Source of the DNA: an uncultured Opitutia bacterium | GTDB lineage: Bacteria > Verrucomicrobiota > Verrucomicrobiia > Opitutales > UBA953 | Direction of reading: 5' to 3' | Assembly (NCBI GenBank): GCA_945957395.1 | Contig: CAMFKE010000004.1 | Coordinates: forward strand, 1 to 64,000 | Length of the DNA: 64,000 bases | Shown: positions 35,464-52,786 of the stretch, piece by piece | Layout of the letters: every line of letters begins with the position of its first letter | Position numbering within the stretch: position 1 is the stretch's first letter | Position numbers and translations under genes: made by a program | The notes under the pieces: generated by a model | Seen by the model: only the letters and a program-made list of their open reading frames with translations | Database searches by the model: none | Told to the model about the DNA's origin: nothing

Positions 35464-38400
35464 TCACGGGGCTTCGGGGGCGGCGCGGTCGCAGGGCTCG
35501 ACCGTCACGGGGTCCTGAAGCGGAACCTGGAACGGCTGCGCCTGGCGCGCGAGCAGGCGCTCGCCGAGCGTGGCGTCGGCCGAAACCTCGGGCTTCTCCA
35601 TGCCCATCGCCGCGTACACGGCCTTCTTGCCGGCCTCGTCGCGCAGGTCGGCCAGGGCGTCGCCGTGGTGGAACTTGAGCGTCTTGACGGCCTTGGTCAG
35701 GCGGTCGTTGGCGATTTCCGAGAGGGCCCCGCCCGGGGCGAGCGTGTGGCCGGCGGCCGGCTCCACGAAAAGTCCGCCTTCGGGCGGCGCGTCGAACTGG
35801 AAGTGCGCGACCAGGCCGGGTTCGGCCTTGGTGACCTTGCCGGCCATGAGCGCGGCGACCCCGGGCTCGCCCAGCGCCTGAGCCCAGACCGAGAGTTCGT
35901 CGAGCCGTCCCAGGTAGCGTTCGCCGCCGTCGCGACGGCAGCCGACCGTGAGCATGTCGCCGCGGTTGAAGGTGTAGGGTCCCTTGAAGCCGAACTTGGT
36001 GGTGGCCGCCTTCTTGCCGTTCACGAAGAGGTCGGCCTCGCCGGCGCGGCAGGAGATGGCCACATGCGTCCACTCGCCGTTGGGCACGCGCGCGCCCGTG
36101 CCGGCGGCCCAGCCCGTGCCGTTGACGCTCACGCGCAGCTCGCCCTCCTTGGTCAGGATGAGCGAGACGGCGTTTTTCTCATCCGATAGCGCCGCCACGG
36201 TGGCGAAGCCGCGGCGCGGGTCGTCCTCGGTTTTCAGCCAGGCGGAGAGCGTGACGCCGGCCGAGCGGATGGGGGTGACCAGTTCGGTGCGCACGCTGGA
36301 CGGGTCGCGGAAATTCAGCGCGCCGCCGGGGCCCTTGGTGAACGCCGCGCGCTTCATGCCGAGCGAGACTTCGGCGGCGGGCATGGGCTTCGATTTCAGC
36401 GCGCCCTCGGCGACCTGCACGACCGCCTTGTACACGCCGGGTTTGGCGTAAGTGACGACCGGGGACATCTCGGTGCTTTCGGAGGGCGTGCCGCCGGGGA
36501 AGCTCCAGCGCACCTTGCCGGCGGCGGAGACGGAGGAGACGTCGAAGTAGCGGACCGTGTAAGGGCCGTTGTGCGGGTACTGCACCGGGTTGTCCACGCG
36601 CGTGGAGACGAAGGGCTTGGAGGGCTCGGCGAGGGGGCGCTCGAAGACTCCCTTGTTCGAGCAGAGGCGCACGCGGCCGAGGGCCGGGCTCACCTTCACA
36701 TAGGCGTTGTGGTTGGAGGCGGGGAGGCCTTCGCCCAGGTCGCGCCAGGCGGCGTCGGAGAGGTTGCGGTAGGCGATGCGGCTGGCGGTGATGGCGTACA
36801 CGCCGCCGTCGGTGCCGGCCTGGCACTCGAGGTCGCGCACGGGGCCGTCGCCCTTCAGTTCGGAGTAGAGGCCTCCGGTCACATCGCTCCAGGTCTTGCC
36901 GCCGTCGAGCGAGCGGATGATGAATCCGGCCTGGCCCGGGGTGCTCGAGGATCCGGCGGCATAGAGCGTGGTGGGCTTCATGGGGTCGCAGGACACGCGG
37001 GTGATGCCGTATCCGGACTTGCCCCACGGCAGGGGCGTCGCGCCGCCGGTGATCTCGGACGGGGTGATCTGCGTCCAGTTGGCTCCGGAGTCGCGGGAGA
37101 CCCAGAGGCGGCGGCCTTCGCAGAGGAGGACGAATCCCGGGGCGCCGTGGGCGGTCGTGAGGTCGTCGATGTAGGCGTCGAAGGTGCGCACGAGCGCCTC
37201 GGTGGAGCGGTCGTTGAACAGCATCAGGTCGGACTTGCCGCCGGACTTGTGCTTGCGCTGGCCGTAGAGGGCGTAGGCGCGGCGCGCGTCAAAGGGCGTG
37301 GCGTGGCTGTGGAAGAGGTCGCCGCCGAAGCCGAAGGTCTTCACCGCCTTGGCGGGTTCGGGGGTGCCGGCGGGCGGCATGATTTTCACCACGCTCCAGG
37401 GGCCGTAGACATAGGCGGGGTCGGCGGGGTTGACGAAGCACTGGGAGGAGTCGCCGCCGCCGACATTGATCCAGTGTTCGCCCCAGTGCACGGGGTGCTT
37501 CACATGCACCGGGCCGTGGTTGCAGGCCATGATCATGACATTCGGGTCGCGCCAGGCCATGTCGAAGCCCCAGGGCTCCACGGCGGTGGTGCCGGAGTCG
37601 AGGGTGTGGCAGGTCTTCAGGTGATCGTCGGTGAAATTCAGACCGCCGTCGTTGCCCATCCAGAGCTTTTGACCGAGGAAGGCCGCGGATTGGAAGTCGC
37701 CGTGGCACCAGTGGGTCTTGAAGGAGGACAGGCCGCCGCCCTCGCTGATGGAGCGGTTGTCGTTCTTGTAGGAGATTTCGCGGATGTGGTTCCAGGTCTT
37801 GCCGCCGTCGCGGGTGAGCCAGGGCGAGTGGCCGCCGGCCACCCACAGGTCCGGGTCGGTGTCGGAGATTTCGAAGACGAGGTCCCACATGCCCTGGTGC
37901 AGCGCGCTCTTGGTCCAGTTGCCGACCATGGGGTTGTCCCCGCGGTCGACGCTTTCGCACAGGTTGGGCCGCTCGCGCGTGGGCGGCAGCACATCGTTGG
38001 CGTCGTTCCAGACATTGCGGAAGGTCTTGCCGCAGTCGTCGGAGATCCAGACGCCCTTGACGCCGTAGAGGATGGGCTCGACCTTGCCCGACCACATGTC
38101 GACCACGTTGTGTTTGCCGGCGAGCGTGGTGTTGCCGCCGAAGCCCATCATGACGATGCGGTCGGGTCTGGCGGTGCAGGTGCGCACATAGTAGCCGAGG
38201 AGTTGCTCGCGCTTGCGCCCGTTCTGCTCGACGGGGAGGCCAGCCGTGACGCGGGTCCAGGTCTTGCCGGCGTCCTCGGAGCGGTGGAATTCCGTCCAGT
38301 CGCAGGCGTTGTAGTAACGGCCGTACTTGCTCGCGGCCAGGTACATGATGGCGGGATTTTCCGGGTGCAGCTTGAAGCTGTTCGCCGCCAGATCCGAGAC

Positions 38401-38967
38401 CTTGCGCCAGGTGGCGCCCGCGTCGTCGCTGCGGAAGGTGCCCGTCTGGGTGGCGTAGACGACGACACGGCCGTCGGCCGAGGTGTCCATGAACACCTGC
38501 TGCGGCTCGGTGCCCTCGGAGTTCGGGTAGAGGGCGGTGCGGTCGATGAGCGGGTCGGCGAGCTTGGTCCAGGAGCGGCCGCCGTCGACGGACTTGAGCA
38601 CGCCGAAGTAGCAGCCGGCGTAGACGAGGCCGGGCGTCTTGCGCGCGAAGACGAGGGCGCGGAAGTAGTTCATGCCCCGGACCTCGTGGTCGGTGTTGCG
38701 CCAGGTCTTGCCGGCGTCCTCGGTGAGCCAGATGCCGCCGCGCTCGGTGGAGGTCAGCACGCGGGAGTGGTTCTGCGGGTCCGGGGCCACGGCCACGAAC
38801 ACGCCGTGCGCGCCGGAATGGCCGTCCACCCAGGAGGCGTAGCCGACATTCGTCCAGGGGCTTTCCTTGGATTGGGGCAGGAATCCGATGGCGGGGGTGC
38901 CGGCGGCGAAAACGGGGGAGAGGGGCAGGAGTGCCAGACCAAGCCAAAGGGGGCGGAGCGTGCGCAT
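35464..38967 (-). CDS. Secreted BNR/VPS10-type beta-propeller protein with PKD and LamG-like domains
   Basis: About 1167 residues. Signal peptide MRTLRPLWLGLALLPLSPVFAAG, then at least eight BNR-type blades with S/T-x-D-x-G-x-T/S-W or close variants (for example TEDAGKTW, SVDGGRSW, SEDAGKTW, TRDGGKTW, SLDGGKTW), as in GH74 xyloglucanases, sortilin-like propellers and sialidase-like proteins. A PKD-like domain (WSFPGGTPSES...VVTYAKPGVYKAVV) and a LamG/concanavalin-like domain (TLSAWLKTEDD...GEWTHVAISCRAGEADLFVNGKKA...YLGRLDELSVW) follow. A C-terminal helical segment ends the protein. No GH74 catalytic pair could be confirmed, so a glycan-binding or lyase-like role is open. Divergent from the fucosidase. 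ATG 38979 is an alternative start. Confidence 0.75.
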   Translation of the reverse strand: MRTLRPLWLGLALLPLSPVFAAGTPAIGFLPQSKESPWTNVGYASWVDGHSGAHGVFVAVAPDPQNHSRVLTSTERGGIWLTEDAGKTWRNTDHEVRGMNYFRALVFARKTPGLVYAGCYFGVLKSVDGGRSWTKLADPLIDRTALYPNSEGTEPQQVFMDTSADGRVVVYATQTGTFRSDDAGATWRKVSDLAANSFKLHPENPAIMYLAASKYGRYYNACDWTEFHRSEDAGKTWTRVTAGLPVEQNGRKREQLLGYYVRTCTARPDRIVMMGFGGNTTLAGKHNVVDMWSGKVEPILYGVKGVWISDDCGKTFRNVWNDANDVLPPTRERPNLCESVDRGDNPMVGNWTKSALHQGMWDLVFEISDTDPDLWVAGGHSPWLTRDGGKTWNHIREISYKNDNRSISEGGGLSSFKTHWCHGDFQSAAFLGQKLWMGNDGGLNFTDDHLKTCHTLDSGTTAVEPWGFDMAWRDPNVMIMACNHGPVHVKHPVHWGEHWINVGGGDSSQCFVNPADPAYVYGPWSVVKIMPPAGTPEPAKAVKTFGFGGDLFHSHATPFDARRAYALYGQRKHKSGGKSDLMLFNDRSTEALVRTFDAYIDDLTTAHGAPGFVLLCEGRRLWVSRDSGANWTQITPSEITGGATPLPWGKSGYGITRVSCDPMKPTTLYAAGSSSTPGQAGFIIRSLDGGKTWSDVTGGLYSELKGDGPVRDLECQAGTDGGVYAITASRIAYRNLSDAAWRDLGEGLPASNHNAYVKVSPALGRVRLCSNKGVFERPLAEPSKPFVSTRVDNPVQYPHNGPYTVRYFDVSSVSAAGKVRWSFPGGTPSESTEMSPVVTYAKPGVYKAVVQVAEGALKSKPMPAAEVSLGMKRAAFTKGPGGALNFRDPSSVRTELVTPIRSAGVTLSAWLKTEDDPRRGFATVAALSDEKNAVSLILTKEGELRVSVNGTGWAAGTGARVPNGEWTHVAISCRAGEADLFVNGKKAATTKFGFKGPYTFNRGDMLTVGCRRDGGERYLGRLDELSVWAQALGEPGVAALMAGKVTKAEPGLVAHFQFDAPPEGGLFVEPAAGHTLAPGGALSEIANDRLTKAVKTLKFHHGDALADLRDEAGKKAVYAAMGMEKPEVSADATLGERLLARQAQPFQVPLQDPVTVEPCDRAAPEAP

Positions 38968-39166
38968 GCTCGCGTGCATACACGCGCGAGCGTCGTGTGT
39001 TCCGGCAACTTCTTCAGCCGGGAAGGCCCGCTTCCCGGCCCCGCCGGGGCCATCTGACGCATTCCGGGCTCGTTCGCCTCCATTTGCGAACCTAGGCTGG
39101 CGAAATCTGTGAAGCGCGGTTCGTCCCTGTCCGCCCCTCTTCCCCCCCCCTCCTTTCCCCTCCGCC

Positions 39167-40960
39167 ATGAAAAGATTCCTTCCGCTCCCGGTCATGCTCG
39201 CGTCGTTGCTCGTCCCCCTTGCCGCCTCCGCCGAACCGGCTTCGCCCGCTCTGGCCGAGCGCAAGGAGACCGCCGCCCAGCGCGACGCGCGCATGGCGTG
39301 GTTCCGCGACGCGCGCTTCGGCATGTTCATCCACTGGGGCCTCTACGCGCAGGCCGGCGGCTTCTGGAACGGCAAGCCGACCAAGACCAACCGGTGCGCC
39401 GAGTGGCTGCAGATCGCGGGCAAGGTGCCCGTGGCCGATTACGCCGCGATGGCCAAGGACTTCAACCCCGTGAAGTACGACCCGGACGCCTGGGTGCGCG
39501 CCGCCAAGGCCGCGGGCATGAAGTACATCGTCATCACCACGAAGCACCACGAGGGCTTCGCCATGTTCAAGACCGCCGCGTCGCCCTTCAACATCGTGGA
39601 CGCCACGCCGTACAAGAAGGACGCCATCAAGCCTCTCGCCGAAGCCTGCCGCAGGCACGGCATCAAGCTCGGCTTCTACTACTCGCAAAACCTCGACTGG
39701 CACCACCCCGGAGGCGGCGGCGGCACCTGGGACCCCGCCCAGAAGGGCGACCCCGCCAAGTATGTCGACGGCGTGGTCATACCCCAGTTGCGCGAAATCC
39801 TTTCCAACTACGGCGACATCTCGGTTCTCTGGTTCGACATCCCCGGCGGCGCCATCAACCAGGAGCGCGCCGACCGTATCTGGAAGTTGGTTACGGAGAA
39901 GCAGCCCAAGATCATCATCAACAACCGTCTCGGCGGCGGCTACCACGGCGACATCGAGACGCCCGAGAACTTCATCCCGCCCGCCGGCTTCCCCGGCAAG
40001 GACTGGGAGTCCTGCATGACGATGAACCACACCTGGGGCTTCGCCAAGGACGACCACGACTGGAAGTCCACCCGGACCCTCATCCGCCACCTGGCCGACA
40101 TCGCGTCCAAGGGCGGCAATCTCCTGCTCAATGTCGGCCCGAACGAGAAGGGCGAAATCCCCGCTCCGTCCCTGGAGCGACTGGCCGAGGTCGGCGCCTG
40201 GATGAAGGTGAACGCCGAGGCCGTCCACGCCACGCGTTCCGCCGGCTTCGCCGCGCTGCCCGAGTGGGGGCGCTACACGCAGCGCCGCAACGCCGACGGC
40301 TCCACCACGCTCTACGCCATCGTCTTCGACGCGCCGAAATCCGGCGAAATCATCGTTCACGGACTGGCCAACCCCGTCGTCTCGGCGCGCGCCCTGGGGT
40401 CGTCCGGCGCCGTCGCGGCGGCCAACGACGGCGCCTCGGTGCGCGTGAAACTGCCCGAGTCGCTCAAGGACAAACAGGATTTCGTCGTCGCGATCACCGT
40501 GAAGGGCGATCTGCGGCTCGACAACGCCGCGTATCCGGATTCCTCCGGCGCCATCCGGCTCACCCCGCGCCAGGCCCGATGCACCAAGGGCCTGAAGGAG
40601 GAGATCGCCGGGGCCTCCGGCGTCGATCACTCGCCGCCCGAGCAGCACCTCGGGTTCTGGACCGACGCCGCAGCGACCGCCACCTGGACGATCAAGACCA
40701 AGTCCGCCGGCGAGTACACGCTGACCGCCCGGCTTGGCTTGCCTGACAAGTCCTCCGGCAGCGCGCTCGAGTTCGTGGTCGGCGGCGCAGTGCTGCCTCT
40801 GGAGCTGGAGTCCACCGGGGGTTGGAACAACTATAAGGACATGCCGGTCGGCACGGTCAAACTGCCCGCCGGTGAGTCGGAACTGGTCGTGCGCGTGAAG
40901 ACCAAGAAGGGCGACGCCCCCTGCAATATGGCCGGCCTCAAGCTCACGCCCGCCAAGTGA
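39167..40960 (+). CDS. GH29 alpha-L-fucosidase
   Basis: Exported glycosidase of 597 residues that removes alpha-L-fucose. Signal peptide about 1-22; catalytic barrel with RFGMFIHWGLYA, KYIVITTKHHEGFAMF, GIKLGFYYSQNLDWHHP, and the nucleophile Asp224 in VLWFDIP. LLLNVGPNEKGEI ends the catalytic part. A C-terminal module (about 470-597; TWTIKTKSAGEYTLTARLGLPD) looks like a carbohydrate-binding sandwich. The leader is a long pyrimidine tract without a Shine-Dalgarno sequence. Divergent from the BNR-repeat gene. Confidence 0.93.
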   Translation: MKRFLPLPVMLASLLVPLAASAEPASPALAERKETAAQRDARMAWFRDARFGMFIHWGLYAQAGGFWNGKPTKTNRCAEWLQIAGKVPVADYAAMAKDFNPVKYDPDAWVRAAKAAGMKYIVITTKHHEGFAMFKTAASPFNIVDATPYKKDAIKPLAEACRRHGIKLGFYYSQNLDWHHPGGGGGTWDPAQKGDPAKYVDGVVIPQLREILSNYGDISVLWFDIPGGAINQERADRIWKLVTEKQPKIIINNRLGGGYHGDIETPENFIPPAGFPGKDWESCMTMNHTWGFAKDDHDWKSTRTLIRHLADIASKGGNLLLNVGPNEKGEIPAPSLERLAEVGAWMKVNAEAVHATRSAGFAALPEWGRYTQRRNADGSTTLYAIVFDAPKSGEIIVHGLANPVVSARALGSSGAVAAANDGASVRVKLPESLKDKQDFVVAITVKGDLRLDNAAYPDSSGAIRLTPRQARCTKGLKEEIAGASGVDHSPPEQHLGFWTDAAATATWTIKTKSAGEYTLTARLGLPDKSSGSALEFVVGGAVLPLELESTGGWNNYKDMPVGTVKLPAGESELVVRVKTKKGDAPCNMAGLKLTPAK

Positions 40961-41102: not shown

Positions 41103-43337
41103 TTACTTGCGCTTGATCAGCACGACGCCCTCGGTGTTGGAGCCTTCGTCGCCGTAGACCTGCGCGACGATCTTGAAGGAGGCGCCGGTCTGGTAGTCCT
41201 TGATCTTCACCTTGTAGACATTGTCCTTGTGCTGCGACCCGGTGAAGCCGTGGTGCTCGTCGGCGGCCACGACCTCGCTGTCGTTGCGCAGGATCTTGAT
41301 GCCGTCGATCTCCAGGCGTTGGGCGCCGCCGGTGTATCGGAAGGTGATCTCATAGTCGCCGTTGGCGTTGATGAGGCCGGTGGCGTCGAAGGTCATGGGC
41401 TTGGGCGTGCCCGCGCCGGGCTGGCCGGGCTTCCAGCGGCCGGCCACGGCGCCGAGCTCGGGGAACGGGTTCTGCGTCTGCTTCGACGCGTACACGAGGC
41501 TGGTGCGCTTGCCGTCGGGCAGCACGGTGATGGCGCGCAGGTTGTCCTTTTCGCCCACCTTGATCGAGCCTTCGAGCTTCGGGGAATCGGCGGTCGGTTC
41601 GGAGCCGTCGAGCGTGTAGCGCACGGAGCCTCCCTCGACCGGGCAGCGCGCGGAGACGAAGGTCTCGCCGCCGCGTTTCTCTTCGGTGATCTCGGGCGTC
41701 GGCACGCGGAAGAGGTAGCCCTTGTCCGCATATCGCGGATACAGAGTCGCCATGCGCTCGCGGAACCCTGCGAAATTGCGGGAGGGCTTCGGGGTCCAGC
41801 CCACTTCCGCCAGAGCGGCGATGCGGGGCAGCGTCAGGTAATCCGCATACGCCTCGGATCGCGCGGTGCCCTCGCCCGGGCGGTCGGCGAGCTTGTCGGG
41901 CGTGTGGAGGAACTGGTCGGACCACAGGCAGGCGTTGGGCCCGAGGATGTTTTTGCGGGCCGCCTCGGGGAGGTTGGCCGGCATCGGGTCCCACTCGTAC
42001 GCGCGTTGCAGCGTGACCGGCGGGATCCAGGTCGCGGCGGGCGGCTCGCCCGGCAGCTTGCTTTCCGGGGCGTCGAAGTAGGTGTTGCCCGTGTAGGAGA
42101 GGACGATGGGGTGGCCCGCGATGGCGCCCTTTTTCGCGTCGTTGGGCTGATGCCAGACCATCAGGCCGGTGTCGGGTCCGGCGCCGCAGCCGAGCACCTC
42201 GCTCCATCCGACGATGCGCTTGCCCTTGGGCTTGAGCATGGCCGAAAGGCGGCGGGTGGCCCAGCCCTGCAGCTCGTGTTCGCCCTTGAGCTTCTGTTCC
42301 TTGATCACGCTCTGGCAGTCGGGGCATTTCTTCCAGCGGGAATAACGGGCCTCGTCGCCGCCGATGTGGATCCAGGGGGAGGGGAAGAGCGCGGCCACCT
42401 CCGTGAAGACGCCGTCGAGGAACTCCCAGGTCTTCGGCTTGCCCACGCAGTAGATCTCCGGGGAGATCGAGTGCTTCACCGGCATCTCGAACTGCTTCTT
42501 GGTGCATCCGAGCTCCGGGTAGGCGCAAAGGGCTGAAAGCGTGTGCGCGGGCACCTCGATCTCGGGGATCACCTCGATGTTGCGCGCCGCCGCGTAGGCG
42601 ACGATTTCGCGGATGTCGCTCTGCGTGTAGAAGCCGCCGTGGCGCGCGTCGCCCTGTCCGCGGAAGGCGCCGATTTCGGTGAGCTTCGGGTAGCGCTTGA
42701 TCTCGATGCGCCAGCCGCAGTCGTCCACGAGGTGCCAGTGGAAGACGTTCAGCTTGTGCATGGCCATCATGTCGAGGTAGCGCAGCACATACTTCTTCGA
42801 GAAGAAGTAGCGGGAGACATCGAGCATCACGCCGCGCCAGGGGTAGGCCGGGGCGTCGGAAATGTTCACCGCGGGAATCGTTTTCGCGCCGGCGCGGGGC
42901 GTGAGCTGAAGCAGGGTCTGCGCGCCGTAGAACCAGCCGCCGTTCGCCGAGGCAGCGATGCGCGCGCCTTTGGCGTCCACGGTGAGCCGGTAACCTTCGC
43001 GCGGAAGGTCGGCGGCGCGTTCGAACACGATGGCTCCGGGGCGCGCCGCACCCGCGGTCGCGACGAACTTGCCCTGCGTGGCCTCGCGCATCGAGGCGGC
43101 GAAAAGCTCGGCCGCCGATTTCGCGGCGGGGTCTGTGTAGACGATGGGCACGGCGCCTCCCAACGGGAACCCGGGCGCGCCTTCGGGCGCGGCGATCTGG
43201 GCGGGCAACGGCACGACCGTAAGCTCGGCCGCGTTCGCGTGGAAGCCGAAGCCGGCGGCGAGCGCAGCGAGGGCGCCAAGCCGGGCGAGGCGCGAGGGGA
43301 GGGAGGGCAGGGCGAGGGAATCGGGGTGGTGTCTCAT
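41103..43337 (-). CDS. GH20 beta-N-acetylhexosaminidase
   Basis: Exported hexosaminidase of about 744 residues releasing beta-linked GlcNAc or GalNAc. A signal peptide is followed by an N-terminal GH20b domain (VVPLPAQI...EGYRLTV). The barrel contains RGVMLDVSRYFFSKKYVLRYLDMMAMHKLNVFHWHLVDDCGWRIEI, with catalytic Asp-Glu in HIGGDEARY. Then FN3-like (VRYTLDGSEPTADSP) and a C-terminal sandwich domain (about 600-744). ATG 43367 is an alternative start. The Cys pairs (CPDC, CGAG) suggest it works outside the cytoplasm. Probably co-transcribed after the esterase and regulator. Confidence 0.92.
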   Translation of the reverse strand: MRHHPDSLALPSLPSRLARLGALAALAAGFGFHANAAELTVVPLPAQIAAPEGAPGFPLGGAVPIVYTDPAAKSAAELFAASMREATQGKFVATAGAARPGAIVFERAADLPREGYRLTVDAKGARIAASANGGWFYGAQTLLQLTPRAGAKTIPAVNISDAPAYPWRGVMLDVSRYFFSKKYVLRYLDMMAMHKLNVFHWHLVDDCGWRIEIKRYPKLTEIGAFRGQGDARHGGFYTQSDIREIVAYAAARNIEVIPEIEVPAHTLSALCAYPELGCTKKQFEMPVKHSISPEIYCVGKPKTWEFLDGVFTEVAALFPSPWIHIGGDEARYSRWKKCPDCQSVIKEQKLKGEHELQGWATRRLSAMLKPKGKRIVGWSEVLGCGAGPDTGLMVWHQPNDAKKGAIAGHPIVLSYTGNTYFDAPESKLPGEPPAATWIPPVTLQRAYEWDPMPANLPEAARKNILGPNACLWSDQFLHTPDKLADRPGEGTARSEAYADYLTLPRIAALAEVGWTPKPSRNFAGFRERMATLYPRYADKGYLFRVPTPEITEEKRGGETFVSARCPVEGGSVRYTLDGSEPTADSPKLEGSIKVGEKDNLRAITVLPDGKRTSLVYASKQTQNPFPELGAVAGRWKPGQPGAGTPKPMTFDATGLINANGDYEITFRYTGGAQRLEIDGIKILRNDSEVVAADEHHGFTGSQHKDNVYKVKIKDYQTGASFKIVAQVYGDEGSNTEGVVLIKRK

Positions 43338-43430
43338 GGGGTGCCCGCTGCATGTAAATTTTTTCATCCACAGGCGAGGCTTTCCTGCGAAGCAACGCGA
43401 ACTTTCGGCCCGCTCCCGCCCGCGGTCCCC

Positions 43431-44267
43431 TCAGCGTGCGGTGCGCAAAATCCAGGCCTGCGCGAGGTCGGCCCAGGCGGACGCGGCGCCTCCCCCGGAG
43501 CTCGCGCCAAGGCCGAAACCGTGCCCTCCGGAGTCGAACACATGCAGCTCCGCAGGCACGCCCGCGCCGCGCAGGCGGCGCCAGAGCTGCACGCTGCCCT
43601 CGGCGGGGAAGGGGTCGTCGGCGGCGTGAACGAAGCAGGCGGGCGGTGAATCCTTGGCCGGCGCGTACGCGCGCTTGAGTTCGCCGTTTCGTTCCAGGAG
43701 GTAGGCCGGATACACGGCGACCACGAAATCGGGCCGGGCCGAGCCTTCGGGCATGGGCCCGTAGGCGGCGTTCAGCGCCAGGTGCGCTCCCGCTGAAAAC
43801 CCCATCGCGCCTACCGCGCGCACGGGCAGCCCGCGCGCCTTCATCCTGACTCGCGCCGCGCGCACGGCCTCGGCCAGATCGAGCCTTGGCGCGCAGTCGG
43901 CGGCTTCGGGGTTCCCGCACGGCACGCGGTAGCGCAGCACCGCCACGGACAGACCCCGGCTCGCCATGCGCCTGCCGACCGCATCGCCCTCCTTGTCGGC
44001 GGCCAGCACGCCGTATCCGCCGCCCGGACACACGATGAGCACGCGTCCGTCGGCGTCCCCGGGGATGAACCATGTGAGCGTGGGCCTCGCGACATCCGTG
44101 ACGCGCCCGGCGTCCAAGGCGCGTCCGGCGGGGTCGGCGCCGGGGCGTGCCTCGGGCGCGGCGCCGCGCATGCCGGTCGTCCAAAGCGGCTCGCGCTCGG
44201 CTCCTCGGGCCGGGCGGGCGAGGAGCAACAGGGCTCCGAGGAGGAGAAGGCTGGGTGTGGTTCTCAT
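43431..44267 (-). CDS. Secreted alpha/beta-hydrolase esterase
   Basis: A 278-residue esterase of the carbohydrate-esterase-like alpha/beta-hydrolase type. Signal peptide (MRTTPSLLLLGALLLLARPARG), oxyanion-hole motif CPGGGYG, nucleophile Ser158 in GFSAGAH, then Asp218 (HAADDPF) and His249 (SGGHGFG). It resembles acetyl-xylan-type or BD-FAE-like esterases, so removal of acetyl groups from sugars is likely. It starts 14 bp after the stop codon of the XylR-type regulator. Confidence 0.85.
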   Translation of the reverse strand: MRTTPSLLLLGALLLLARPARGAEREPLWTTGMRGAAPEARPGADPAGRALDAGRVTDVARPTLTWFIPGDADGRVLIVCPGGGYGVLAADKEGDAVGRRMASRGLSVAVLRYRVPCGNPEAADCAPRLDLAEAVRAARVRMKARGLPVRAVGAMGFSAGAHLALNAAYGPMPEGSARPDFVVAVYPAYLLERNGELKRAYAPAKDSPPACFVHAADDPFPAEGSVQLWRRLRGAGVPAELHVFDSGGHGFGLGASSGGGAASAWADLAQAWILRTAR

Positions 44268-44281
44268 GAAACAGTGTCGGC

Positions 44282-45415
44282 TCAGGCCCGATGCCGCGTC
44301 GGCCGCGCCGGGTATTCTCCGGGGGCGCATCCCGCCGTTTTGCGGAACGCCGCCCTGAATGCCCGCGGTGACGCGAACCCTACGCCCGCCGCCACCGACT
44401 CGACCTTCTCTCCGGCTGCGAGTAGTCCGCGTGCGACCTCCATGCGCAGGGCCAGACCCTTGGCGGCGACGCCCCTGCCGAAGGCGTCGGTGAACGCGCG
44501 GTTGAGCGTCGAGCGCGACACGCCGACGAGTCGCGCAAGCTCATCCACCGAGGGCGGGTTTCTCACGCGCAGACGCAGGATGGCCAGCGCCCGTTCGCAC
44601 AGCGGGTGGGGCGCCGTTTCGCCCGCCGTGCTCGCGCGAACCACGAGCTCGACCGGAGGAAAGGCCAGGCAGGCGCCTTCCGGTATCTTTCCCGCCATGC
44701 GCTCGTCCAAAAGCTTCGCCGCGGCGTAGCCCCAGGCGCGGTAATCGATGGCGATGCTGCTGAGCGGAACCGGAGCCAGCGCGGCGACCAGGTCGCGGTT
44801 GCCGAAACCCAGGATGCAGGCGTCGCCGGGCACCTTTAGTCCCGCCCTGTTCGCCGCGTCCAACGCGAGCCGGGCGGAGGCGTCCACCGAGCCGAAAATC
44901 CCCACGGGCCTCGGCAGCCGTCGCAACGATTCGGCAAGCCGCGCCACGGCGGAGGACTCGTCGTCATCCCCGCATAGGAAGGTTTCCCGAGGTCTTGCGT
45001 CGCCCGCCAGCCCTGCGGAAAAGCCCGCCGCTCGGGCGGCGTGCGTGGGGGTGAGGTCGCGCGCGACAAAAAGAAAGGAGGCGACCGGGCGGAGTCGCAG
45101 GTGGTCTGCCGCGAGTCGCCCCACGGCGTCGCCGTCGGAAGGGCACCGGCACCAGCGTCCGTTTTCCGGATAGGAAAGGGAAAGCTCGACCACGGGCGCG
45201 CGAGTCGCCTGCGCGAAACGGTGCACGGGGTGCTCCGGCGGAGGCAGCATGCCCAGGATGCCGTCGCACGCCGACGGCTCCAGCTCCGCCACGCTGTCGG
45301 CGTTGAGCACGCGCGTGAGCCATCCCCTTTCGAGGGCGTAGCGCAAGGCGCCTTCATGCAGGGCTTCCGAGTACCAGTGGAAGGCGAGCAGGATGCGTGG
45401 AGGAGGGGCGCTCAT
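44282..45415 (-). CDS. XylR-type (AraC/LacI hybrid) transcriptional regulator
   Basis: A 377-residue regulator with an N-terminal periplasmic-binding-like sensor (RILLAFHWYSEALHEGALRYALERGWL, then GFSAGLAGD and VGIFGSVDASARLALDAANRAGLKVPGDACILGFGNRDL). A C-terminal AraC helix-turn-helix lies at about 285-377 (SVDELARLVGVSRSTLNRAFTDAFGRG...GFASPRAFRAAFRKTAGCAPGEY). E. coli XylR has the same layout. It probably senses a sugar from the glycan and controls the flanking operons; direct repeats that could be its operator lie just upstream. Confidence 0.9.
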   Translation of the reverse strand: MSAPPPRILLAFHWYSEALHEGALRYALERGWLTRVLNADSVAELEPSACDGILGMLPPPEHPVHRFAQATRAPVVELSLSYPENGRWCRCPSDGDAVGRLAADHLRLRPVASFLFVARDLTPTHAARAAGFSAGLAGDARPRETFLCGDDDESSAVARLAESLRRLPRPVGIFGSVDASARLALDAANRAGLKVPGDACILGFGNRDLVAALAPVPLSSIAIDYRAWGYAAAKLLDERMAGKIPEGACLAFPPVELVVRASTAGETAPHPLCERALAILRLRVRNPPSVDELARLVGVSRSTLNRAFTDAFGRGVAAKGLALRMEVARGLLAAGEKVESVAAGVGFASPRAFRAAFRKTAGCAPGEYPARPTRHRA

Positions 45416-45556: not shown

Positions 45557-47626
45557 ATGACCCGACCGCTCCCGAAGTCCCTCGCCGCCTTCGCCCTTGC
45601 CCCGCTCTTCGCGTATTCCGCCACCCGGGTTGATGTGTGGCGATACTCCGAGGTCTCCGCCGAGGCCGCCGTCGCCGGCGAGACCGTCGCGATCCCCCAC
45701 ACCTGGAACGCGACCGACATCCAGGCGGGCCGGGGGAGGGACGACATGGGCAGGGACGGATACCGGCGCGCGCCCTCCTGGTATGCGACGCAGCTCCCGA
45801 CGCCTACTCCGGGCAAGCGGGTGTTCGTGCGATTCGGCGCCGTGTCGTCGGTGGCCGAGGTGTCGCTCAACGGGCATAAGCTCGGCACGCACCGAGGCCC
45901 GGCCACCGCCTTCGCCTTCGAACTCACGCCTCACCTTTCCCCGGGTGGCGCGAACACGCTTCTGGTGAAGGCGGACAACACCTGGCGCTCCGATGTCGCG
46001 CCGCTCTCCGGCGACTTCGGCATACCCGGCGGCATCTACCGCGCGGTGGAACTTTTGGAAAAGCCGCCGGTGTGCATCTCGCCCCTCGTGCTCGGCTCGC
46101 GCGGCGTATCCGTCACGACCTTGCGCGCCGACAAGACGCGCGCCGAGCTCAAGGTCGTCGCACACCTCGACCGCGCGGCGAACGCCGCCGCGGAGGTCGC
46201 CTTCCGCCTGCTCGACGCCAAGGGCGCGCCTGTCGCCACCGCCGCGGCCTCAGCGCCCGCCGGCGTCGGCGCGACGAGCGTCGAGGTGAAGCTTTCCCTG
46301 GATTCGCCGCATTTGTGGAACGGGCTGAAGGACCCGTACCTCTACACGCTCGAGACCTCGCTCGCCGCCACCGACGGTTCCAAGGACACGCAAAAGCTCA
46401 AGGTCGGCCTGCGCACGCTCACCTTCGACAAGGACAAGGGCGCCTTCCTCAACGGGGAAGCTTACCCTCTGCGCGGGGTGAACCGGCACCAGGACCGGGA
46501 AGGGCGCGCGTGGGCCGTGACCGAGGAGCAGGAGCGGGAGGATGCGGCGCTCATCCGCGAAATCGGGGCGAACGCGGTGCGCGCCGCGCACTACCCGCAC
46601 AGCGAAGTGTTTCTCGACGAATGCGACCGGCTCGGGCTGCTCGTGTGGGCGGAGGCGCCGCTCATCGACACGGTGGGCCAAAACCCCGCCGAACTCGGCG
46701 CGAATGCGGAGCTTCAGTTGCGCGAGATGATGGCGCAGCAGCGTCACCACGCCTGCGTGTTTTGCTGGAGCCTGTTCAACGAGATAGGCCAGCGCGAAGG
46801 CGGCGGGAAGAACCCCCTGTCGGTCGTGCGCCGGCTCAACGATGTCGCGCATGCCGTGGACCCTTCGCGCCCCACCGCGGGCGCCACCAATCGCGCATGG
46901 AAGGAGCTTAACAGCATCGCCGACCTGATGGCGTACAACGGCTATCCCGGCTGGTACGGCGGCGGCAAGGGCGGCCACGACGCCGTGTTCAAAAGCTTCC
47001 GCGCCTCGGCGCCCGACCGTCCGTGGGGCATTTCAGAATACGGCGCCGGCGCCTCCCTCTCGCATCAGGACGACTCCGTGATGAAGGGGCCCAAGCCCGC
47101 CGGAAAATGGCACCCCGAAGCCTGGCAAAGCCGCGTGCACGAGCACGCCCTGGCCTCCATCGAAAGGATGCCGCAGGCCTGGGGCACCTTCGTCTGGAAC
47201 ATGGCCGACTTCGCCAGCCCCTGGCGCACCGAGGGCGAGCGCGACGGCATCAACGCCAAGGGGCTCGTCACGTATGACCGCCGGACACGCAAGGACGCGT
47301 TCTTCCTCTACAAGGCCAACTGGTCCGACGCCCCCGTGCTGCACCTGCTCGCCCGCCGTGACTCCGCGCGCAAGTCGGCCGACACCGTGGTGCGCTACTA
47401 CAGCAACCTCGCTGATGTGCGCGTGACGCTCAACGGCGCCGCGCTGCCCGCGGGCGTCGCGTATGCGCCGTCCGCTTACATCATCGGAAATGTGCGGCTG
47501 CGTCCCGGAAAAAACACCGTCGAGGCCGCCGCGAGAACGAAGGATGGCAAGAGCGTGACGGATGCCGTGGAGTGGGTGCTGGAGGGTCCGGCGAAGCAGC
47601 CCGCCCCACGCCCTTCCGCCCGTTGA
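45557..47626 (+). CDS. GH2-family beta-glycosidase (beta-galactosidase-like)
   Basis: A 689-residue exported glycosidase. Sequence begins with a signal peptide, then a sugar-binding domain (WRYSEVSAEAAVAGETVAIPHTWNATD), an immunoglobulin-like domain and a catalytic barrel. Acid/base Glu409 in CWSLFNE, nucleophile Glu494 in GISEYGAG, and RGVNRHQDREGRAW at the start of the barrel. The NAKG motif before VTYDRRTRKDAF also occurs in GH2 uronidases, so galactosidase or glucuronidase cannot be settled; glucuronidase would suit chondroitin. First gene of a unit with the sulfatase and lyase. Confidence 0.85.
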   Translation: MTRPLPKSLAAFALAPLFAYSATRVDVWRYSEVSAEAAVAGETVAIPHTWNATDIQAGRGRDDMGRDGYRRAPSWYATQLPTPTPGKRVFVRFGAVSSVAEVSLNGHKLGTHRGPATAFAFELTPHLSPGGANTLLVKADNTWRSDVAPLSGDFGIPGGIYRAVELLEKPPVCISPLVLGSRGVSVTTLRADKTRAELKVVAHLDRAANAAAEVAFRLLDAKGAPVATAAASAPAGVGATSVEVKLSLDSPHLWNGLKDPYLYTLETSLAATDGSKDTQKLKVGLRTLTFDKDKGAFLNGEAYPLRGVNRHQDREGRAWAVTEEQEREDAALIREIGANAVRAAHYPHSEVFLDECDRLGLLVWAEAPLIDTVGQNPAELGANAELQLREMMAQQRHHACVFCWSLFNEIGQREGGGKNPLSVVRRLNDVAHAVDPSRPTAGATNRAWKELNSIADLMAYNGYPGWYGGGKGGHDAVFKSFRASAPDRPWGISEYGAGASLSHQDDSVMKGPKPAGKWHPEAWQSRVHEHALASIERMPQAWGTFVWNMADFASPWRTEGERDGINAKGLVTYDRRTRKDAFFLYKANWSDAPVLHLLARRDSARKSADTVVRYYSNLADVRVTLNGAALPAGVAYAPSAYIIGNVRLRPGKNTVEAAARTKDGKSVTDAVEWVLEGPAKQPAPRPSAR

Positions 47627-47643: not shown

Positions 47644-49131
47644 ATGCGCCTGCCCCCCAAGCTCCTTCCCCTGGTCGCCCTCCTGTCGGTCGCCCCGTCG
47701 GCCGTCGCTTCGTCGCCCCCGGCGCGCCCCGACATCCTCATCCTTCTGGCCGACGACATGGGCTTCGCCGATCTCGGCTGCTACGGCTCCGAGGTGCCCA
47801 CGCCCAACATCGACAGGCTCGCCGCGCGCGGCGTGCGCTTCACGGATTTTCACACCTGCGCCCGGTGCAGCCCGAGTCGCGCCGCACTGCTCACCGGGCG
47901 CTATCCGCAGGCGGTGGGCATGGGCCATCTCGACACGGATATGGGCAAACCCGGATACCGCGGACGCCTCGACCCCGACGCGCCCACGCTCGCGGAGCGT
48001 CTGCGCGACGCCGGCTACGACACCGCTCTGGCGGGCAAGTGGCACCTCGGCCTGGGCGAAGGCCACCGGCCATGGGATCGCGGCTTTCGCCGCAGCCGGG
48101 GCCTGCTCGGCGGCGCCGCCGATTATTTCAAACCCATGCCGGCGCGCCCCTTCGGCGAGGACGGCAAACTGCTCGCGCCGGAGGATCTGCCCGCCGATTT
48201 CTACATGACCGACGACATCGCGGCGACCGCTTCGCGCTACATCGCGACGGCCCCCGCGGACAAGCCGCTCTTCCTTTATGTCGCTTTCACCGCCCCGCAT
48301 TACCCGCTTCAGGCTCACGAGGCCGACATCGCGCCCCGTCTTGCGGATTATGCCAAGGGGCCGGCGGCTGTGCGCGACGCGCGTTTCGCGAGGATGAAGG
48401 CCTCGGGCCTTCTCGCGGCCGACGCCACCCTCGCGCCGTACAGGTTTCCCGAGTGGGCGAAACTGCCGCCCGCCGCGCGAGCATCCTCGGTGCGCGACAT
48501 GGCCACCTACGCCGCGCAGATCGTGGCCATGGACCGCGGCGTGGGGAAGATCCTTGATGCGCTGGAGAAATCCGGGCGCGCCGGGAACACGCTCGTGATG
48601 TTCCTCTCCGACAACGGGGCGACGCGCGAGCAGCACGACCGCGGTTACGGCCCGCATTGGGCGACCGTGTCGAACACGCCTTTCCGCAGTTTCAAGGCGC
48701 ACACCTACCGCGGCGGCACGGCCGATCCGCTCCTCGTCGTGATTCCGGGCGGCGCGCCCGGAGGCGCCCGCATCGAACGCAGCCCGACCCATATCATCGA
48801 CCTCGCCCCCACCTGCCTTGAATTCGCGGGCCTCGCCCCGTCGCCGAGCACCGACGGCGTCTCTCTCTCGGCGCGCCTTTCCGACGCCAAGGCGCCCGCA
48901 GCCGCGCGCACGCTTTTTTGGGAACACGAGGGCCGTCGCGGCGCTCTGGACTCCGGTCGGAAGCTTGTGTCGGAGCCCGGGCGCGCGTGGGAGCTCTATG
49001 ACGCGCGCGACACCGGCGAGACGCGCGATCTCGCCGCCGCCGAACCCGACGCCGTGAAACGCCTCGCCGGCGAGTGGCGCGAGTGGGCGGCCGGGCATCG
49101 GGTGGACCCGCGGGCGGCCGTGCGGCGATAG
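47644..49131 (+). CDS. Sulfatase (S1, formylglycine-dependent)
   Basis: Type I sulfatase of 495 residues, exported. Signal peptide about 1-25. Metal ligands LADDMGFADLG; modification motif C75-S-P-S-R-AALLTGRY (Cys to formylglycine); GKWHLG, SDNGATREQHDRGYGP, THIIDLAPTCLE. The Cys form needs a formylglycine-generating enzyme (FGE) or anaerobic maturase; none is in this window. It starts 17 bp after the GH2 gene and precedes the chondroitin lyase fusion, so a sulfated glycosaminoglycan is the likely substrate. Confidence 0.9.
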   Translation: MRLPPKLLPLVALLSVAPSAVASSPPARPDILILLADDMGFADLGCYGSEVPTPNIDRLAARGVRFTDFHTCARCSPSRAALLTGRYPQAVGMGHLDTDMGKPGYRGRLDPDAPTLAERLRDAGYDTALAGKWHLGLGEGHRPWDRGFRRSRGLLGGAADYFKPMPARPFGEDGKLLAPEDLPADFYMTDDIAATASRYIATAPADKPLFLYVAFTAPHYPLQAHEADIAPRLADYAKGPAAVRDARFARMKASGLLAADATLAPYRFPEWAKLPPAARASSVRDMATYAAQIVAMDRGVGKILDALEKSGRAGNTLVMFLSDNGATREQHDRGYGPHWATVSNTPFRSFKAHTYRGGTADPLLVVIPGGAPGGARIERSPTHIIDLAPTCLEFAGLAPSPSTDGVSLSARLSDAKAPAAARTLFWEHEGRRGALDSGRKLVSEPGRAWELYDARDTGETRDLAAAEPDAVKRLAGEWREWAAGHRVDPRAAVRR

Positions 49132-49195: not shown

Positions 49196-52100
49196 ATGTC
49201 TACCCTGAAGCCCCTCTTCCTGCTCGGATTGTGCGGTCTGCCGTGCTCCCTCGTCCTGCTCGCCGACGATGTCGTGCCGGCCTATTACGACGCCGCCAAC
49301 GCGCCCGGCGCCGGCAACTTCAACACCACCTGGCCCGGCTTTCGCGCGCACTGGCTCTCGCGCCGAAAAACCTTCGCCGCCGAGCGCCCGGTCTCTCCCG
49401 GGGCGACGGTTTTCCTGGGTGACTCGATCACCGAGGGCTGCCCGACGACCAAGCTTTTTCCCGGCGTTCGAAGCGTCAACCGGGGCATCGCCGGCGAGAC
49501 GACGCGCGGCATGCTGTGGCGATTGGAGGCCGACGTCATCGCCTTGCGGCCGGCGGCGGTGGTCATCCTCGGCGGCACCAACGACCTGTTCCAGCCCGGC
49601 GGTTCGCCCGAGGCCACGGCGACGAACCTGCGCGTCATGGTCGAGCGCCTGCGGGCGGCCCTGCCCGGCTGTCGCGTGATCGTGCCCAAGGTCATGCCCA
49701 ACGCCAAGGTCGAGCCGGAGCGCGTGCGCGCCTTCAACGACGCCGTGGACAAGGCGCTGGAGCCGCACGGCGACTGCGTGCGCGTGGATACCTTCACGCC
49801 CTATCTGACGCCCGCCGGCGGCTTCGACGCCTCGGCTTTCCGCGACGGCGTGCATCCGAACGCCGAGGGTTATGCGCGTTATCAAAAGGCGATGTCGCGC
49901 GCTCTCTCAACGCCTTCCGCGCCGACCGCAGTGCCGCCTCTTTCGGACGGTGTGATCAGTTTCGAGGCCGCCGCGGTCCCCGAGGGCGTGAGCGCGTCCG
50001 GCGGAGGGCTGTCGGTGTCGACACGCCGGCGCATCCATGGCGAACGCTCCCTGCGCTGGGCGTGGAAGGGCGGCGATGTGCTCGTCATCCGTCACCCGGT
50101 GGAGGTCCTCGGGCCGAAGGCGGCCCGGGAGGCGTTCGGCACCGCGGCGCTTTCGAGCTTCCATCTCTTTGTTCACAACGAGCGCGCGGTGGCCGACGGC
50201 AAGCTGCGCGTGGAGTTTGCGACGGGAGGCGCCGACGCGCCGACGCAGTGTCATTTTGAAATGGGCCTGGACTTCACGGGGTGGCGCAAGGCGACGCCGG
50301 CGTTTCTGCGCGACATGAAGGGGACGCCGGGCGAGGGCATGGACACGATCCGGCTGGTCGCGCCTGCCGGTGCGGGCGTGATGCACCTCGACCAGATCAT
50401 TCCGGGCATCGTCAACGACCCGCGCTTCCAGTGGCCCGACCGGCAGCTTCCCGAAATCGGTCCTGATAACGCGCCGCCCGCGCGACTGCCCGTCCCGGCT
50501 CGGCGCCCGATTGAGGCCGACGCTCGCGAACTCGCCGACCTGCTGGTCGTCGCCGCCCGGCTCGCCGGCGAAGCCCCGCGGCGAAGCGCCGGGGAGGTGG
50601 ACGCCGCCTGCGCGCGCGCGGAGGCTTTGGGGGTGGTGGAGGATGGCGACGGCGTGCGAGGTCCGCATGTGATCACCACCTACGAGCATGACATGTTCCC
50701 CCCCGAGCTGCGGCGCAAGGTGGTTGCCGGTCAGGCCGGATACATGCCTATCAATCGATACGGGCAGGTCATGCTGGATGTCGCCGAGGCCTGGCGCGCC
50801 GCGCCGGACGAGCAGTCCCGGGGGCGGGCGCAGGCTCTTTTCATGCGGTTGACCCGGCACCTGCTCGACCAGGGGTGGGCGGACGGCAGCGCGCTGGGCA
50901 CCACGCACCACTTCGGCTACCAGTCGCGCGAATGGGTGCGCGCCGTGTTCCTGATGCGCGAGCCGCTTGCGAAGGCCGGGCTGCTGGCCCCGATGAGCGG
51001 GGCGCTGGAGTGGTATGCGCGTGAATTCATCCTGCTTGATTCTCCCGGAGAGAGCCTGCGCCGCGGCGTCGACATGGACTACCTGAATACGGTGGCGGCC
51101 TCTCACCTCATGCTGTGCCTGATGCACCCGGATCCCGCCGTACGCGCCTCGCGCGCTCGCGCCGCCGCCGACTACTGGCGCGTTTCCTTGGGCGAGACCG
51201 GCCGCGACCTCGGATCGGGTTTCAAGCCGGACGGCACCGCCTTCCATCACTGGGGGCACTATCCGGGATACGCGTATCCCGGCGTCATCGGCGGCGCATA
51301 CCTCGCATGGGTGCTGCGCGGCACGCGGTTCGCGCTGCCCGAGTCCGCGCTGGCGCCCATGAAGGGCCTGGTGCGCACGGCGGCCTTTTCGGGGAACCCG
51401 CAGACGGGCATGGCGCTCGCCGGGCGCCACCCCTTCGGGGAAAGCTCGGTGGAGTCGCTCGCCGAGGCGGCGGTGCGCCTGGTCGAGGCCTCCCCAGCGC
51501 CGGACCGCGATTTCGCGGCGCTCGCCGTGTCGCTCAGTCCCGGCGATGCCGGGCGCGTGGCCGCGGCCTGCGGCGGGCCTGTCGGGCCGGCGGCGCCGGC
51601 TCAGGGGCATCGGGTTTTCAACTACGGCTGCTTCGCCATACACCGGCACGGCGACCGGATGGTCACGCTGAAGGGCTTCAACCGCTATGTGTGGTCGAGC
51701 GAGATTTACGCGAAGGACAACCGCTACGGGCGCTACCCGAGCAACGGTTCCGTGCAGATCGTGAAGCGCGGCGCGAATGCGGATTCCGGATACCTTCAGG
51801 AGGGCTGGGATTGGAGTCGCTTCCCGGGCGCGACGGCCCGGCGGCTGCCTCCGGATCTGCTGGAAAGCCCCTCGCGGCACACGCTCATGCTTCGCTCCGA
51901 CAAGACCTTCTGCGGCGGCTCCTCGCTGGAGTCGCGCTACGGTGTCTTCGTCATGCAGCTTTGGGAGCCCGACATGAAGCGCTTCGACCCGGCTTTCGCC
52001 GGACTTAAAACCGTCTTCTGCTTCGACGACCGGATTGTCTGCCTGGGGTCGGGAATCCGTTCCGGCGACTCCGAGCATCCTGTGGAGACGACCCTGTTCC

Positions 52101-52786
52101 AGCATGCCGACACGCCCGGAGCGAGCGGCGTGCAGATCGGTCCCGACGGCCCTGTCGGCGAATTTCCCTTCGCGCGCCGCCTGCCGCCGCCGGTCTGGCT
52201 GACGGACGGCCGGGGCAACGGCTATGTCGTGCGCTCCGGTCCGGACATCGTGTGCGAACGGCGCCGGCAGGTGTCGCGTCACAACAAGACCAAGGCGCGC
52301 ACCGAGGGGGATTTCGCTTCAGCCGTGCTCGATCACGGCGTCGCGCCCTCCGACGGCGGCTACGAGTACGCGGTGCTGCCGGGGGCGACGCCCGAGCGCA
52401 CCGCCGCCTTCGCCCGGAATCCTCCCTACGCGGTGCTGAGCCGGGACGGCGCGCTTCACGCGGTTCACGACCAAGCCTCCGGGGTGCGCGCCTATGTCGC
52501 GTTCCGACAGGGTGGTTTCGCCGCCGGAGATCTGCTGGCCGTGTCTTCGCCGTGCCTTGTCATGACTCGCGAGACGCCCGAAGGGCTGCGCGTGAGCGTG
52601 GGCGATCCGGACTTGAACATCCCCAAGGACGGCGTGTCCGCGCCGAAGACCCTCGCGGTCACGCTGCGCGGCGAGCGCCGGCTGGCGGCGCCGGCGGAAG
52701 GAGTGAGCGCGTCGGCCGTGGCGGGCGCCACTCAGGTGGTCGTGCGGGTGCGCGACGGCATCCCCGTGGAGTTCACGCTTCGCTGA
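49196..52786 (+). CDS. SGNH esterase-chondroitin ABC lyase (PL8) fusion
   Basis: A 1196-residue exported bifunctional enzyme. Residues about 55-240 are an SGNH/GDSL hydrolase with all four blocks: Ser77 (FLGDSITEG), Gly in NRGIAGE, Asn129 (LGGTNDL), and Asp217/His220 (DGVHPNAEG). Residues about 250-1196 resemble the complete chondroitinase ABC I of Proteus: N-terminal lyase domain (GERSLRWAWKGGDVLV), helical domain (LLDQGWADGSALGTTHHFGY, DGTAFHHWGHYPGYAYPG) and beta-sandwich. The catalytic residues known as His501, Tyr508, Arg560 and Glu653 there appear here as His685, Tyr692, Arg744 and Glu836. It should de-esterify and then cleave chondroitin/dermatan-type chains by beta-elimination. Substrate of the esterase domain is unknown. 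I know of no described protein with this fusion. Confidence 0.92.
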   Translation: MSTLKPLFLLGLCGLPCSLVLLADDVVPAYYDAANAPGAGNFNTTWPGFRAHWLSRRKTFAAERPVSPGATVFLGDSITEGCPTTKLFPGVRSVNRGIAGETTRGMLWRLEADVIALRPAAVVILGGTNDLFQPGGSPEATATNLRVMVERLRAALPGCRVIVPKVMPNAKVEPERVRAFNDAVDKALEPHGDCVRVDTFTPYLTPAGGFDASAFRDGVHPNAEGYARYQKAMSRALSTPSAPTAVPPLSDGVISFEAAAVPEGVSASGGGLSVSTRRRIHGERSLRWAWKGGDVLVIRHPVEVLGPKAAREAFGTAALSSFHLFVHNERAVADGKLRVEFATGGADAPTQCHFEMGLDFTGWRKATPAFLRDMKGTPGEGMDTIRLVAPAGAGVMHLDQIIPGIVNDPRFQWPDRQLPEIGPDNAPPARLPVPARRPIEADARELADLLVVAARLAGEAPRRSAGEVDAACARAEALGVVEDGDGVRGPHVITTYEHDMFPPELRRKVVAGQAGYMPINRYGQVMLDVAEAWRAAPDEQSRGRAQALFMRLTRHLLDQGWADGSALGTTHHFGYQSREWVRAVFLMREPLAKAGLLAPMSGALEWYAREFILLDSPGESLRRGVDMDYLNTVAASHLMLCLMHPDPAVRASRARAAADYWRVSLGETGRDLGSGFKPDGTAFHHWGHYPGYAYPGVIGGAYLAWVLRGTRFALPESALAPMKGLVRTAAFSGNPQTGMALAGRHPFGESSVESLAEAAVRLVEASPAPDRDFAALAVSLSPGDAGRVAAACGGPVGPAAPAQGHRVFNYGCFAIHRHGDRMVTLKGFNRYVWSSEIYAKDNRYGRYPSNGSVQIVKRGANADSGYLQEGWDWSRFPGATARRLPPDLLESPSRHTLMLRSDKTFCGGSSLESRYGVFVMQLWEPDMKRFDPAFAGLKTVFCFDDRIVCLGSGIRSGDSEHPVETTLFQHADTPGASGVQIGPDGPVGEFPFARRLPPPVWLTDGRGNGYVVRSGPDIVCERRRQVSRHNKTKARTEGDFASAVLDHGVAPSDGGYEYAVLPGATPERTAAFARNPPYAVLSRDGALHAVHDQASGVRAYVAFRQGGFAAGDLLAVSSPCLVMTRETPEGLRVSVGDPDLNIPKDGVSAPKTLAVTLRGERRLAAPAEGVSASAVAGATQVVVRVRDGIPVEFTLR

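Follow-up and report, generated by a model that had tools for sequence, protein, structure and literature searches.

An uncultured Opitutia bacterium encodes, in one polypeptide of 1196 residues, an SGNH esterase domain followed by a catalytically complete chondroitin-ABC-type lyase of the PL8 family. The gene lies in the window, i.e., the whole 64,000-nucleotide stretch of DNA analysed here, and runs from ATG to stop with zero internal stops; together with the Pfam domain series, this bears out the single intact frame proposed in the first-pass annotation (Table 1). The protein looks like a true fusion, the product of one gene, and a chance match of its domains and catalytic residues is out of the question. 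Each half is a known kind of enzyme, and none of the other genomes searched showed the two combined.

Table 1. Features of the fusion gene and its neighbourhood (positions of the window; residues are those of the fusion protein).
Feature	Positions	Strand	Basis or remark
SGNH esterase–PL8 chondroitin-ABC-type lyase fusion, 1196 aa	49196..52786	+	Open frame, Pfam domains, single copy in genome
Probable Sec signal peptide, residues 1 to ~23	49196..49264	+	MSTLKPLFLLGLCGLPCSLVLLA-DD; cleavage site by eye
SGNH/GDSL hydrolase domain, residues 73–228 (Ser77, Asn129, Asp217, His220)	49412..49879	+	PF13472, fold model
Linker STPSAPTAVPPLSDG, residues 236–250	49901..49945	+	Without second signal peptide
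Lyase_N domain, residues 252–419	49949..50452	+	PF09092
PL8 alpha-helical catalytic domain, residues 480–758 (His685, Tyr692, Arg744)	50633..51469	+	PF09093, 1hn0 mapping
PL8 super-sandwich domain, residues 805–1064 (Glu836)	51608..52387	+	PF02278, 1hn0 mapping
PL8 C-terminal beta-sandwich (Lyase_8_C), residues 1080–1139	52433..52612	+	PF02884
S1-type sulfatase, 495 aa from ATG 47644, likely signal peptide, CSPSR formylglycine motif	47644..49131	+	PF00884
GH2 glycosidase	45557..47626	+	Nearest NCBIfam model beta-glucuronidase LacZ4
Regulator: periplasmic-binding-protein-like sensor and AraC HTH, divergent from GH2 operon	44282..45415	-	
Alpha/beta-hydrolase related to pectin/xylan acetylesterases (PaeX, AxeA1 models)	43431..44330	-	
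GH20 beta-hexosaminidase	41103..43367	-	
GH29 alpha-L-fucosidase, weak CBM6 match	39167..40960	+	

Domain composition of the fusion protein

The N-terminal domain matches PF13472 above the Pfam cut-off (E 4e-26) and has the conserved blocks of SGNH hydrolases, namely the GDS serine, the oxyanion glycine and asparagine, and Asp-x-x-His, which are found in the motifs GDSIT (residues 75–79), NRGIAG (95–100), GTND (127–130), and DGVHPN (217–222). Throughout the alignment of 11 SGNH relatives, GDSIT, NRGI-G, GTND, and D-x-x-H-x-N are retained, and the four catalytic residues, which had been called an intact set, are invariant.

Modelled alone, this domain adopts the SGNH fold with pLDDT 92. Its best fold match is the sialate O-acetylesterase of Phocaeicola vulgatus (7pzg; Z 26.6, with 190 residues superposed at 1.6 A; further structures of the Phocaeicola/Bacteroides vulgatus enzyme are 6njc and 6xpg), followed by uncharacterised acylhydrolases and PAF acetylhydrolase (1wab, Z 22.3), and then by xylan acetylesterases. 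Since the characterised proteins among the top fold matches take off acetyl groups, O-deacetylation is the likely chemistry of the modelled domain. The sialate O-acetylesterase is, unlike the fusion, a stand-alone protein with a different expected sugar, and its identity to the SGNH domain (about 24%) is no higher than that of PAF acetylhydrolase.

The remainder of the protein contains Lyase_N, Lyase_catalyt, Lyase_8, and Lyase_8_C in this order, all above the Pfam cut-offs, as in PL8 lyases of the ABC type. Residues 270–1194 share the domain series of chondroitin ABC lyase I from Proteus vulgaris (1hn0), and in this alignment (561 bits) His685, Tyr692, Arg744, and Glu836 correspond to His501, Tyr508, Arg560, and Glu653 of the P. 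vulgaris enzyme, respectively, which, unlike the fusion, has its own start and lacks an esterase domain. As these four residues are also invariant in the alignment of 12 lyases, the earlier claim of a full-length PL8 lyase with its catalytic residues in place is confirmed. The domain list given with that claim holds for PF09092 and PF09093, which denote the ABC type, and for PF02278; PF08124, also listed, has no Pfam match in the lyase half. Among solved structures, this half comes closest to chondroitin ABC lyases, which score 561 and 322 bits and far exceed the other PL8 types, and the fold comparison places it nearest to the same enzymes.

Family membership predicts esterase activity for the SGNH domain and lyase activity for the PL8 half, and the probable N-terminal signal peptide suggests that the protein is exported. 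The model of the full-length protein has mean pLDDT 61.7, with residues 243–446 below 50; the relative geometry of the two active sites in this model was therefore rejected as unreliable.

Genomic context and relatives of the two halves

The GH2, sulfatase, and fusion genes, separated by 17 and 64 bases, respectively, probably form one operon with the fusion gene in the last place; downstream of it lies the housekeeping gene of trigger factor. The score of the GH2 protein against the beta-glucuronidase LacZ4 model (564 bits) is under the model cut-off of 950. The alpha/beta-hydrolase constitutes a second acetylesterase-like gene of the cluster, and the set of enzymes as a whole suits a role in the breakdown of a glycosaminoglycan or a host-type glycan. 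The protein encoded at 35464–39330 on the reverse strand (1288 residues) has VPS10/BNR repeats and a LamG-like domain, and its only PDB match is weak and lies outside the repeats; we considered it as a candidate sialidase and rejected this assignment, as there is no sialidase match among PDB sequences.

No GH88/GH105 (PF07470) gene was found in the genome, and hence the unsaturated products of the lyase must be processed another way or released. Such genes are absent from eight out of 15 PL8-bearing genomes checked, this one included.

GH29 genes occur 2–9 kb from PL8 genes in four genomes of three families; in genomes G642, G683, and G792, the first and the last of which belong to the same genus, the distance is 1.8–7.1 kb. 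Since G642 has a single GH29 gene genome-wide, this adjacency is unlikely to have arisen by chance, and it may reflect a fucose-bearing target, e.g., fucosylated chondroitin or mixed host glycans. Outside the window, the loci with GH29 next to PL8, namely L112:7471-15927 (with two sulfatases in between), L123, and L116, which come from three genomes, are possible fucosylated-chondroitin loci.

The closest relative of the lyase half (42% identity) stands alone and comes from another class (genome G683), and the tree pairs the two with support 94/94, which is fair rather than full. The SGNH subfamily of the fusion is present in 50 out of 384 genomes of the class, where its members are joined to a 3-keto-disaccharide hydrolase domain (PF06439), placed behind an alpha/beta-hydrolase, or free-standing. 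The fused proteins of this kind in the same phylum have 35–44% identity to the SGNH domain studied here and, unlike our fusion, carry other partner domains and no lyase. In another genome (locus L133), an alpha/beta-hydrolase 31% identical to the product of 43431–44330 is fused to the same type of SGNH domain. Thus, fusion of this module to enzymes that are esterases or act on carbohydrates is recurrent, the lyase being its partner here. Because its relatives occur with several other partners or alone, the fusion by itself does not reveal the target of the SGNH domain.

The closest SGNH protein (47% identity) is free-standing; in genome G485, its gene stands between those of an alpha/beta-hydrolase and a sulfatase, the latter 39% identical to that of the window. 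This related sulfatase ties the SGNH activity to the breakdown of sulfated glycans independently of PL8. The contig with this esterase–sulfatase set (C84, L122:12720-15888) carries no lyase. Within the genome studied here, several distant SGNH paralogues are clustered at G000:C1:93233-98782, near BNR_2 genes (C1:99339-102604).

Predicted function and alternative substrates

The explanation that we consider best, at evenly balanced probability, is that the protein acts as one exported bifunctional enzyme that breaks down an esterified chondroitin-like chain, both domains acting on the same chain. The SGNH domain would strip O-acetyl, or another small acyl group, via the Ser-His-Asp serine-esterase mechanism, and the PL8 domain would then act by beta-elimination on the hexosaminyl-(1,4)-uronic acid linkage, yielding 4,5-unsaturated oligosaccharides, with Tyr692 and His685 as the presumed acid/base pair and Arg744 and Glu836 predicted to position the chain. 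The sulfatase of the operon would take off sulfate, and the GH2, GH20, and GH29 enzymes would trim glucuronic acid, hexosamine, and fucose, respectively.

Several observations favour this explanation: the complete domains and catalytic residues, the match of the lyase to the ABC type, the closeness of the SGNH fold to O-acetylesterases, the second acetylesterase-like gene, the joining of a similar alpha/beta-hydrolase to this SGNH type in L133, the sulfatase with its CSPSR motif, the gene row in G485, and the adjacency of GH29 and PL8. Against it stand the nearest characterised SGNH fold, which acts on sialic acid and not on a uronan, and the lack of GH88/GH105 in the genome, a lack shared, as noted above, with other PL8-bearing genomes. 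The fusion hints that the sugar chain targeted bears ester groups. We infer that the group would be acetyl, that it would be located on the same glycan as the cutting site of the lyase, and that its removal would aid the lyase. The first-pass annotation had suggested an acylated target whose acyl groups block the lyase; its first part gains from the second acetylesterase-like gene and from the proximity of the SGNH fold to O-acetylesterases, whereas the placement of these groups on the lyase's own chondroitin chain, and their blocking effect, are plausible only.

O-acetylation is not a known feature of the usual chondroitin sulfate of vertebrates, and no naturally O-acetylated chondroitin was found in the open-access literature searched. 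At clearly less than even probability, a single enzyme would deacylate and depolymerise a naturally O-acylated chondroitin-like glycosaminoglycan, which would imply that such chains exist and feed bacteria of this lineage. If the esterase does act on the chain of the lyase, the gene would point to O-acylated chondroitin-like glycans as real bacterial food and would offer a tool to find and analyse them; such a substrate, if shown, would raise the interest of the fusion. Even otherwise, this is a compact enzyme with two activities, whose halves can be tested separately by point mutants.

The main competing explanation, possible at clearly less than even probability, is that the SGNH domain deacetylates a companion glycan, e.g., O-acetylated sialic acid or fucose in side glycans of mucins or proteoglycans, and owes its fusion with the lyase solely to co-export. 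It agrees with the sialate O-acetylesterase being the closest solved fold, with GH29 and GH20 in the cluster, with ten BNR_2 (sialidase-type) matches in the genome, and with the existence of close SGNH relatives without any PL8; on the other hand, the cluster itself yielded no sialidase, its BNR/VPS10 protein having no such match among PDB sequences, and the low identity to the sialate esterase does not exceed that to PAF acetylhydrolase.

It is rather unlikely that the lyase half acts on some other acidic chain, such as an acetylated bacterial exopolysaccharide, in the manner of PL8 xanthan lyases. The PL8 family does include xanthan and alginate lyases, sequence alone is no sure guide to the substrate of its members, and xanthan is acetylated, its loci pairing PL8 lyases with separate esterases (PMC10881899). 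Still, the lyase belongs to the ABC type (PF09092/PF09093), chondroitin ABC lyase I is its best match by a wide margin, and the sulfatase and the GH20 hexosaminidase are encoded in the same cluster.

Precedents, distribution, and integrity of the fusion

No description of an SGNH–PL8 protein was found in the open-access literature searched, and the first-pass statement that no enzyme with this arrangement had been described holds, within that literature, for SGNH combined with an ABC-type PL8 lyase, no characterisation of the same fusion having been published there. It does not extend to the general design of a lyase joined to an esterase. PL-CE of Bacteroides intestinalis (Ostrowski et al., 2022, cited in PMC10881899) is predicted to combine, like the fusion, a polysaccharide lyase with a carbohydrate esterase in a single chain; its esterase module deacetylates xanthan oligosaccharides, and its lyase half showed no activity on xanthan. 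Unlike the fusion, it belongs to a xanthan-oligosaccharide locus, and its lyase is of unknown family and is not presented as a chondroitin ABC lyase. The fusion studied here differs in its partner, an ABC-type chondroitinase with all catalytic residues, the idea of a lyase–esterase fusion being already on record. The chondroitin sulfate utilization locus of B. thetaiotaomicron (BT3324/BT3350 of the PL8 family, sulfatases, and GH88) combines PL8 with sulfatases, as here (PMC9067506); it differs in having separate genes and in using GH88, whereas the genome studied here has no PF07470 match, and its review mentions no esterase (PMC9067506).

In order to define the distribution of the fusion, we searched 79 genomes of the family, 273 of the order, 384 of the class, and 388 of the phylum, as well as 346 of the class holding the nearest lyase, with the whole protein, the lyase half, or PF09092; the samples overlap and comprise several hundred genomes in all (labels up to G947). 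The 213 loci fetched were all scanned with the SGNH profile. PL8 is carried by 102 of them, five of which represent the window's own gene, and, apart from these copies, no SGNH domain was found in the PL8 frame or elsewhere in the 102 loci; the hypothesis of a wider SGNH–PL8 family in the phylum was rejected accordingly. The fusion was likewise not found in the 346 genomes of the other class. PL8 lyases occur in many families and are nearly all stand-alone, about 950–1050 residues long. In plasmids (38 records), PL8 matches begin at residue 240 or later, and none of the 20 listed records has the fusion; no PL8 relative was found in viral contigs; and other phyla were sampled by one pattern scan of a wider contig collection, which yielded a single distant lyase. 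Hence, within the sample, the fusion is limited to one genome.

As this genome is also the only one of its genus in the sample, the fusion might be a recent chance event with no joint role, the esterase being dispensable or nearly neutral. We regard this as very improbable, given that the SGNH catalytic motifs are all intact, the frame has been maintained, and both a matching sulfatase and a further esterase are encoded nearby.

The true fusion is further supported by the structure of the join. A Pro/Ser/Ala linker bridges the end of the SGNH fold and the start of Lyase_N, as defined by the alignment of 12 lyases, in which the other proteins with a complete N-terminus have their own methionine and leader. 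A misjoined or read-through pair of genes would be expected to retain such a leader and a spacer; no second signal peptide or intergenic remnant was found at the join. An assembly artefact merging two genes is hardly credible even for a draft genome of 14 contigs, since the contig bearing the fusion has 336,931 bases and both overall and third-position G+C are even over the join; a frameshift or a two-gene join, named at the outset as what would overturn the finding, was rejected on the same evidence, with no internal stop and a clean linker.

Extensions at the opposite end were observed in PL8 lyases of other genomes: the lyase at L101:1408-5130 (G683) has C-terminal DUF1961/DUF6250 additions, and that at L032:753-5030 (G158) has several hundred extra C-terminal residues with no Pfam match.
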